Below, in pieces: positions 3,551 through 20,182 of a DNA stretch of 46,735 bases. This stretch comes from a virus, in the IMG/VR virus record IMGVR_UViG_3300011994_000002, positions 3,717 to 50,451 of that record. One strand, given 5' to 3'. The stretch's first letter is position 1. Every line of letters starts with the position of its first letter. The notes under the pieces were generated by a model, which saw nothing but the letters and a program-made list of their open reading frames with translations, did not search any database and was not told where the DNA came from. The position numbers and the translations under genes were made by a program.

Positions 3551-4452
3551 GACATGTCCTCAGCATCACGAAATCCTTTGAAAATGGGGAACCTAAAGCT
3601 ATCCTTGCGACCAACAGCAAAGTGGGTGAACGTAATATACTTGCCAACATATTTATCTTTATTTGCCCACACTTCTGCACGCATAGCATCGTCTAGGCCA
3701 CTCCCGCAAGTAAATGTAATCCCTTGGCAAGTGCAAACGAGTGCGCCCAAAGTGTCTGCACCTACCATACCTTCGAGAGCTTGTGACCTCTGTGTACGCC
3801 CCAGCTCATTAGTTTTAGCTTCGTTAGTATTGGTAAATTTCTCCTCAAAACCAATAATCAAGCCCTCATCTTGATCGAACCGCTTCAGCTTTGAGATGAT
3901 ACCCTCTTTGAGTGTGCTCCTACCCATCTTGTAAGCACCTGTAACGCTGCGGCACATAACGCCCTCAAAACCAAGCTCAAGCACATTAGCCTCGTACTCA
4001 AGAAGTTCTTGCTCGTTGCGTACAATGGTTTGCTCAAGGTGTACAACATGCTGACTGCCGTACTCTCGTACAATGTTTCCAGCCAGTTGGTTGCGTGCTG
4101 CGTAATCTTCTTCACTGTCAAAGTAATCAAACACAGCAAGGCGAATTTCATCACGTGAAAACTCAGGCTTTAGCTCTGTTGCCATAGCCGCACTTGTAGT
4201 TTTATTGAATACCAACTTATCGCTCCAATCCCCGTATAGGATTTCAGCATCAATGCCATTCAACTCAGTTTTCCCAAACAACTCCTGGACAGTTTTACTG
4301 CGAATTTTCTTCATGCTGCGGCTGTACACAACACCGTTGACAATTAGGCATCTTATCCCATCCAGCTTTTTGCTGCATAGCACAGGCCACTGTAGATTAG
4401 ATGTATCTTCAAGTGTTGCTGCCAACATTGGCTTCAATTGCTTCTCGCTCAT
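3547..4452 (-). CDS. ATP-dependent DNA ligase
   Basis: Seals nicks with ATP through an enzyme-adenylate. Motif I is KLDGIR, with the catalytic lysine at residue 29. Motif III is DAEI (residues 68-71), FDYFD follows at 108-112, motif IV is EGVM (163-166) and motif V is IISKLKRF (about 185-192). At 301 residues it is a minimal T7-type ligase: adenylation domain plus OB-fold, without NAD-ligase domains. Start ATG overlaps the stop of a 52-aa membrane-protein gene. It lies mid-operon between small unknown genes and the antirepressor. A role in phage replication or repair is inferred from the family. Confidence 0.95.
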   Translation of the reverse strand: MSEKQLKPMLAATLEDTSNLQWPVLCSKKLDGIRCLIVNGVVYSRSMKKIRSKTVQELFGKTELNGIDAEILYGDWSDKLVFNKTTSAAMATELKPEFSRDEIRLAVFDYFDSEEDYAARNQLAGNIVREYGSQHVVHLEQTIVRNEQELLEYEANVLELGFEGVMCRSVTGAYKMGRSTLKEGIISKLKRFDQDEGLIIGFEEKFTNTNEAKTNELGRTQRSQALEGMVGADTLGALVCTCQGITFTCGSGLDDAMRAEVWANKDKYVGKYITFTHFAVGRKDSFRFPIFKGFRDAEDMS

Positions 4453-18969: not shown

Positions 18970-18998
18970 TTGCCTTTACCATACAGACCGTATATACT
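18970..18998 (+). promoter_or_regulatory. Promoter of the serine recombinase operon
   Basis: TTGCCT (18970-18975), 17 bp, TATACT (18993-18998), 51 bp before the recombinase ATG. Confidence 0.65.
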
Positions 18999-19049
18999 CT
19001 TTATATGGCCTGAGCAATAACGCGACAGGCACACTATAGGAGAATTAAA

Positions 19050-19727
19050 ATGGCAACAGTTTATGGGTATTTGCGTATAAGCACTAATGACGGCTTACAG
19101 AATGTTGAGAATCAACGCATGGCTATCAAAGCTAAGGGATTTGCGGTAGATCATTGGTATGCGGAGGAAGGTGTCAGTGGGAGTGTCCCTGCCAAGAAGC
19201 GTCCAGAGTTTTCGGCAATGCTATCAAAACTGGTGGAGGGCGATATTTTAGTCACTGTCTCAATTGACCGCCTAGGGAGAAACGCTGAAGACATTCTCAA
19301 CACCATCAACACACTTGAGAAGATGAAAGTTGGCGTCAACATCATCTCTCTGGGCAACATGGACATCACTAGCGCAGCAGGTAAGGCATTCGTGACAATT
19401 CTAAGCGCCTTGGCTGAGATGGAGAAGGCTGAAATTGTAGAGCGTGTTAATCGCGGCCTCATCCGTGTGAAAGCAGAAGGCCGCATTCTAGGCCCACGCC
19501 TTAAGATTGCACCTGATGTTCTGCGTGAGTTGTGCCAAGCACGTAAAGAGAAGGTTACACTAGACGTTCTCAGCGCACAATATGGCCTTGACCGCAACAC
19601 TATCTCGCAGAACGTAGCCAAGCACAGTGACAAGCTTGATGAATACGAAATCGAGTGGGATAAGCGAGAGTTGCAATACAAAGCTGCTGAGGAAGCCCGT
19701 ATTAATAACGGGAGGAAGGTTGCATGA
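19050..19727 (+). CDS. Small serine recombinase (resolvase/invertase family)
   Basis: Catalyses site-specific DNA strand exchange through a phosphoserine link. The N-terminal domain has YLRIST, with catalytic Ser11 and Arg9. The conserved block is SIDRLGRN (residues 71-78), then an E-helix (LSALAEMEKAEIVERVNRG) and a short C-terminal helix-turn-helix with LDVLSAQYGLDRNTI. At 225 residues it is resolvase-sized, with a charged tail of about 30 residues; it is not a large serine integrase. Possible roles are resolving genome multimers, inverting a segment, or integration. AGGAGAATTAAA precedes the ATG. It overlaps the next gene by 4 bp. Confidence 0.93.
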   Translation: MATVYGYLRISTNDGLQNVENQRMAIKAKGFAVDHWYAEEGVSGSVPAKKRPEFSAMLSKLVEGDILVTVSIDRLGRNAEDILNTINTLEKMKVGVNIISLGNMDITSAAGKAFVTILSALAEMEKAEIVERVNRGLIRVKAEGRILGPRLKIAPDVLRELCQARKEKVTLDVLSAQYGLDRNTISQNVAKHSDKLDEYEIEWDKRELQYKAAEEARINNGRKVA

Positions 19728-20140
19728 GCAAGAAGAAAATTGTAGCAAGAGAAATAAACACTAAGTTGGTTGCATACTATTGTACAAAACAGTGGGACAC
19801 CGCGTTAGATACTAAGGCCACTCAACGTAGACGCATTACAGAGTGGGTTGCTGAGAGTGACTGTGAGATTGTAGAAGAGTTTGGAGATGGCGATCTTGAC
19901 AGAGCCTTTGAGAGAGCTTATGACATAGGCGGCAGAGTTATAGCTGCTGATTTAAGTAGGTTTGCTGACAGAACTATCGACATCTTAGATATTGCAGAAG
20001 ATGAGACAAAGCGTTACGTTACAACAGAAGGTGATGCAGGTATAGATACTCCAAACTGTGAGAGGAGCAAGCTTGCTCATGCAATGGTAATAGCAGTTAG
20101 ACAAAACTACATCATGACCTGCGAACACTGGTTGTCGTAA
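19724..20140 (+). CDS. Degenerate serine recombinase-like protein lacking the catalytic serine
   Basis: Residues 14-90 follow the resolvase N-terminal fold: a first strand LVAYYCTKQ, a helix with TQRRRITEWV, a strand DCEIVEEFG, and IAADLSRFADRTIDIL, which parallels the D-R-L-x-R block of the active enzyme. The R-x-S of strand 1 is replaced (CTK), so catalysis is not expected. The 45-residue C-terminus is unrelated to a DNA-binding domain. It is translationally coupled to the active recombinase (ATGA), suggesting a modulating partner. Confidence 0.65.
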   Translation: MSKKKIVAREINTKLVAYYCTKQWDTALDTKATQRRRITEWVAESDCEIVEEFGDGDLDRAFERAYDIGGRVIAADLSRFADRTIDILDIAEDETKRYVTTEGDAGIDTPNCERSKLAHAMVIAVRQNYIMTCEHWLS

Positions 20141-20146
20141 CAAACA

Positions 20147-20182
20147 AGGCCACATTCCTTACCAGAAACGTGGCCTATTTCC
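20147..20182. terminator. Terminator between convergent operons
   Basis: AGGCCAC (20147-20153) pairs with GTGGCCT (20170-20176) over a 16-nt loop, followed by ATTTCCTTTT. It follows the recombinase pair and faces the leftward operon. Confidence 0.65.

Follow-up and report, generated by a model that had tools for sequence, protein, structure and literature searches.

A small serine recombinase gene overlapped by a gene for a putative catalytically inactive recombinase relative in a tailed phage

Can the gene for an active phage recombinase be followed directly by one for a relative that neither cuts nor binds DNA, and what might such a protein do? This question was raised by a stretch of 46,735 bp (the window), which corresponds to positions 3717 to 50451 of the 50,451-base viral record IMGVR_UViG_3300011994_000002 and carries the terminase, portal, major head protein and tape-measure genes of a tailed phage. 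Two open reading frames, A and B, are located on the plus strand between bp 19050 and bp 20140, and their ATGA overlap joins them into a two-gene unit. The features of the locus are listed below, with the basis of each assignment.

18970..18998, plus strand: putative sigma-70-like promoter of the A-B unit, TTGCCT-17-TATACT (9/12), weak and no more frequent than chance
19038..19042, plus strand: Shine-Dalgarno sequence of A, AGGAG, with the ATG 7 nt downstream (sequence)
19050..19727, plus strand: ORF A, 225 aa, small serine recombinase of the resolvase/invertase type with intact active-site residues and a helix-turn-helix (HTH)-like C-terminal tail (PF00239, phrog_125 and gamma-delta resolvase matches)
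19711..19715, plus strand: Shine-Dalgarno sequence of B, GGAGG inside GGGAGGAAGG, with the ATG 8 nt downstream (sequence)
19724..19727, plus strand: ATGA overlap of the A stop and the B start (sequence)
19724..20140, plus strand: ORF B, 138 aa, putative degenerate serine-recombinase catalytic domain (sequence profiles, alignment-guided model and residue comparison)
20147..20176, no strand assigned: 13-pair hairpin, terminator-like on the minus strand, with a T-rich stretch after the hairpin also on the plus strand (hairpin call and sequence)

The hairpin starts 7 bases past the B stop and closes the unit. With Shine-Dalgarno sequences of their own and this hairpin behind B, A and B look like a complete two-gene unit, convergent with a block of minus-strand genes. 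The first-pass annotation had described the two genes as coupled, which agrees with the overlap, the Shine-Dalgarno sequence of B and the terminator, but its further claim of equal production was not upheld, since the ATGA overlap indicates linkage only and a separate GGAGG lies 8 nt before the ATG of B. The codon score of B in frame was 0.204, compared to 0.11 to 0.33 for the genes of the window and to values of zero or below for the other five frames of B, and by this measure ORF B is coding-like with phage-like codon use. Inspection of the sequence by eye revealed no continuation of B in another frame and no frameshift remnant. The region from bp 18104 to bp 19030, a stretch of approximately 0.9 kb located upstream of recombinase A, contains no convincing gene and no significant inverted repeats, and it is possible that this gene-poor stretch is home to the site of A. 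A search for an invertible segment or crossover site found no long inverted repeat near A-B, and none clearly indicating an invertible segment in the sister genomes. A perfect 27-bp tandem duplication, ATTTCCTTCTTATAGGTAGCCGCATAG, is present at bp 17379 to bp 17432, immediately 3' of the end of an ORF.

Protein A matched PF00239 with an E value of 7e-34 (117.5 bits, above the cut-off of 23.3), the phrog_125 DNA invertase family with 6e-48 and gamma-delta resolvase with 1.8e-18. It keeps the R-I-S, S-G..R and D-R-L-G-R motifs (in the segments GYLRIST, SG..PAKKRP and IDRLGR) as well as the HTH-like tail, and alignment identified the catalytic residues R8, S10, R45, D67, R68 and R71 in gamma-delta numbering. 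Judged by its sequence, A is an ordinary small serine recombinase and should be catalytically competent, in agreement with its first-pass description as active. Hundreds of relatives of A, at less than 60% identity, were found in phage genome records.

For protein B, a search of Pfam (24,736 models) also gave PF00239 as the best match, with 15.6 bits and an E value of 0.017; this falls below the cut-off of 23.3 and spans only the middle of the domain (positions 16 to 94 of 145 in the model). When 12 related phage records were searched with PF00239, B was the sole match apart from bona fide recombinases (14.2 bits, E = 0.0012 for its genome). Against a profile of 17 diverse recombinases B scored 10.3 bits (p = 2.3e-5), a score reached by 2 of 20,000 shuffles, while reversed B scored -2.2. 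A profile of the catalytic domain only, built from 22 recombinases, gave p = 7.4e-5 (5 of 20,000 shuffles), and among 6,974 ORFs this profile ranked B first after the true recombinases, by a margin of less than 1 bit. An initial profile of six sequences was less convincing, with 3.1 bits and 412 of approximately 20,000 shuffles reaching that score. Smith-Waterman comparisons of B with single recombinases other than A gave p values of 0.004 to 0.01 for three and 0.18 for one. PHROG and NCBIfam searches gave no support for B as a recombinase, and PADLOC gave no match to B as a defence protein.

Structure prediction of B alone, proposed in the first-pass annotation as a check on the resolvase fold, gave a divided answer. 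From the single sequence, AlphaFold2 returned an all-helical model with a pLDDT of 49, in which the resolvase fold was not seen. With six recombinases in the alignment, pLDDT rose to 71.8 and pTM was 0.61, with blocks of residues 31 to 80 at 83 to 90, and the order of elements, E-H-E-H-E-H-E-H with a final helix E of 26 residues, is that of the resolvase catalytic domain. A search of the PDB and of predicted viral structures with this model gave serine recombinases as the top matches at a probability of 1.0 (phage serine recombinase 4bqq, 3guv, 3g13, Bxb1 and TP901-1), and only serine recombinases matched well. Since recombinase sequences in the alignment steered the model, it shows compatibility with the resolvase fold and not independent proof of it.

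It could be argued that B is an orphan phage protein, unrelated to recombinases and resembling them by chance only. The best Pfam matches of shuffled B, to other families, had E values of 0.036 to 0.17, so that the value for real B is little better; the local profile ranks B barely above unrelated ORFs, and neither PHROG, NCBIfam nor the single-sequence fold favours a recombinase. However, shuffled or reversed B never matched PF00239, the family matched by B is that of the gene to which it is coupled, the alignment is co-linear, and with PF00239 taken alone the Pfam score corresponds to a p value of about 7e-7 (0.017/24,736). The alignment-guided model is also compatible with the resolvase fold. 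We consider a chance likeness unlikely; B does resemble serine recombinases, though weakly at the sequence level, and it probably descends from one.

Membership of B in the family as an active enzyme is rejected on the basis of its residues. Of the columns invariant among recombinases, B keeps Q34, E52, G56, R79 and A124, which are fold positions, and has lost the catalytic ones. The nucleophile, R8, the serine of the S-G motif and the conserved E/R of helix E are absent, the R45 loop is deleted (approximately 11 residues), and D67 and R71 are replaced by Ser78 and Asp82, whereas R68 is kept as R79. In the earlier reading, CTK had taken the place of R-x-S. The loss of the serine stands, as no Ser occurs within residues 3 to 44 of B whatever the alignment register, but the register is not fixed: CTK is one option, and MAFFT aligns Cys20 with the Ser column. 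ORF B terminates inside helix E and so has no C-terminal DNA-binding domain, as had been noted before. B is best explained, in line with its first annotation, as the catalytic domain of a recombinase from which the catalytic residues and the DNA-binding end are missing.

The description of B as a paralogue of A was not supported. A tandem duplication of A was considered and rejected, as BLASTP of A against B gave no match and the Smith-Waterman shuffle p value was 0.69. B is closer to the lineage formed by the recombinases of sister phages L004, L005, L024, L056, L070 and L074 and their like (HMMER p = 1e-4; 16 of 20,000 shuffles) than to A-type recombinases (p = 0.018; 1151 of 20,000). No homologues of B were found in phages by tblastn at E values up to 10, nor in plasmids, viral contigs and genome contigs. 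There were none in 11 sister-phage records, where the only match, with E = 0.005, lay in an unrelated ORF at the end of a contig. Within the reach of these searches, B appears confined to one phage genome.

Sister phages were found via their terminases, at 71 to 77% identity. Most of the long sister records have exactly one PF00239 gene near a PhoH/ClpP block, in differing lineages and on differing strands, and in sister phage G001 the gene is absent from the part of the genome examined. Recombinases of differing lineage and strand lie near this block at L003:4240, L004:294, L005:1454, L056:1270 and L070:2501. These comparisons suggest that the recombinase at the block has been swapped repeatedly among the sister phages. 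The nearest relative of A (41% identity) occupies the identical place and strand in sister phage G002 without B; the next gene downstream is on the opposite strand, with its end 25 bases away. This A-orthologue without B argues against an essential partner role for B.

Other features of the window also differ from the sister phages. The PhoH-like protein encoded on the minus strand at bp 23182 to bp 23928 has an altered Walker A motif, GYAGTSKT, where the sister phages have GSAGTGKS, and it is only 30% identical to theirs, compared to 73 to 77% for the terminase. A near-perfect palindrome, TGTTCTCAMATKTGAGAACA, occurs in six copies (at bp 2173, 6305, 12032, 25504, 28988 and 36373) where zero are expected, and was not found in sister genomes G002, G003 and G012. 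Its copies are mostly intergenic, two of them 14 to 24 bases upstream of 12/12 sigma-70 promoters (at bp 29032 and bp 36407), and it is a putative operator-like or other regulatory site. The contigs of these three sisters (86 to 90 kb) have direct repeats of 126 to 127 bp at their ends and look complete; the 50-kb record containing the window is therefore probably a fragment.

It is conceivable that B has no function and is what remains, in truncated and decaying form, of a second recombinase that was displaced when A was acquired, perhaps one of the sister-phage lineage. Such an origin would fit the better score of B with that lineage, the swapping of recombinase types at the locus, and a protein with no catalytic residues, tail or relatives. 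However, the sister recombinases of that lineage are on the opposite strand, and the intact frame of 138 codons, the strong Shine-Dalgarno sequence, the phage-like codon score, the fit of the ATGA overlap and the terminator are unexpected after such neutral divergence. In a simulation of neutral decay the frame stayed open in 5% of cases at 0.2 substitutions per site and in 0.5% at 0.5, so its survival in this way is unlikely, and the Shine-Dalgarno sequence, overlap and terminator of B fit a gene in use. A relic therefore seems improbable.

The reading that we prefer, with somewhat less than even confidence, is that B is a dead recombinase-domain protein without a DNA-binding end, made with A and acting on A via catalytic-domain contacts. 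Serine recombinases dimerise and form synaptic tetramers through their catalytic-domain/helix-E interfaces. A would be the catalytically competent partner, and B, co-made with it, would have lost catalysis and DNA binding while keeping the core of the catalytic domain and most of dimerisation helix E, and may contact A at these same interfaces. Because B would neither cut DNA nor bind it via the usual tail, assemblies that mix A and B would have no activity or an altered one, and B may in this way restrain, time or bias recombination. Given the coupling and the retained dimerisation parts, binding A and altering its assembly would be the most economical role for B, and inhibition or restraint the simplest sign of its effect, since a complex containing B would be short of catalytic and DNA-binding halves. 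The first-pass annotation had put forward a heterodimer partner, a directionality factor or an inhibitor as candidate roles. The interaction of A with B, the direction of its effect and its benefit to the phage are what we infer from these features. That A is controlled in trans by this co-translated pseudo-recombinase subunit, dead and unable to bind DNA, which joins its dimers or tetramers, is a more tentative proposal. It is quite unlikely that B is an exapted dead recombinase domain acting on other targets independently of A, for although another virus provides a precedent in a catalytically inactive serine recombinase homologue, poxvirus F16 (PMC4304020), its translation is coupled to that of A, which points to a role for the two together.

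Partner genes were also found beside other small phage recombinases, and among the sister phages the partner is often an HNH protein with the DNA-binding tail of a recombinase. In a sister phage (L075:1955-3160, L081:2501-3706) and in the related contigs L085 to L088 and L090, an HNH protein with a recombinase-type tail is encoded 45 to 61 bases upstream of the recombinase. Its tail is paralogous to the DNA-binding tail of the recombinase (38% over 88 aa, E = 2e-12), and HNH replaces the catalytic domain. L102, L108, L109, L111 and L117 have an HNH protein without a recognisable tail. In the unrelated L061:2369-3453/L141 and L077:2492-3819, the HNH-tail gene is 3' of the recombinase with an ATGA overlap, although most of the HNH-tail genes found do not adjoin a recombinase. 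These pairs resemble the pair in the window in that an active small recombinase lies beside a gene sharing one recombinase half, in L061/L141 and L077 also with the ATGA overlap; they share the DNA-binding tail, which is fused to an HNH nuclease, whereas the pair in the window shares the catalytic half, which is predicted to be dead. In other sister phages a third kind of neighbour, a helix-turn-helix protein of 72 to 74 aa, is encoded 50 to 70 bp 3' of the recombinase (L066:3254-3472, L068:3230-3454). Small phage recombinases thus have coupled partner genes repeatedly, the dead catalytic half having been seen in the window only. The two kinds of half-recombinase partner, a dead catalytic half and an HNH domain with a DNA-binding tail, suggest that partner genes have been neglected in recombinase systems.

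Serine recombinases are known to be regulated by DNA enhancers together with host proteins, by accessory sites and by unrelated directionality proteins. If our reading is true, a subunit that is a pseudo-enzyme, coupled to its active relative, would add a mode of controlling DNA rearrangement that differs from these and needs protein only, and a B-like subunit would be a compact tool to switch recombinases off. The first-pass annotation knew of no described phage pair of this kind, and none was found in the literature or phage collections searched. The 'Hin1/Hin2' pair of Escherichia coli phage 813R1 was set aside as a split invertase in a tail-fibre region. Both its sequence and its active-site residues place A in the resolvase/invertase family (PF00239; gamma-delta/Tn3 resolvase, Hin/Gin), whereas B has a weak, co-linear similarity to the family, is compatible with the catalytic-domain fold in the alignment-guided model, and has no nucleophile, R45 loop, D67, R71 or DNA-binding domain. 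The sole precedent found in the literature on inactive or heterodimeric phage serine recombinases was F16 (OPG061), a nucleolar protein of a eukaryotic virus, thought to be phage-derived (PMC4304020). It appears low in the fold-search list of the B model. Like B, it is a viral protein with a serine-recombinase domain in which catalysis has been lost, but coupling to an active recombinase is not described for it (PMC4304020). B could also be compared to directionality factors such as phiC31 gp3, which binds a large integrase at its zinc domain (PMC5814800); B is likewise small and phage-encoded and could, by binding a serine recombinase, change how it behaves, but A is a small recombinase without a zinc domain, and B itself resembles the catalytic domain.
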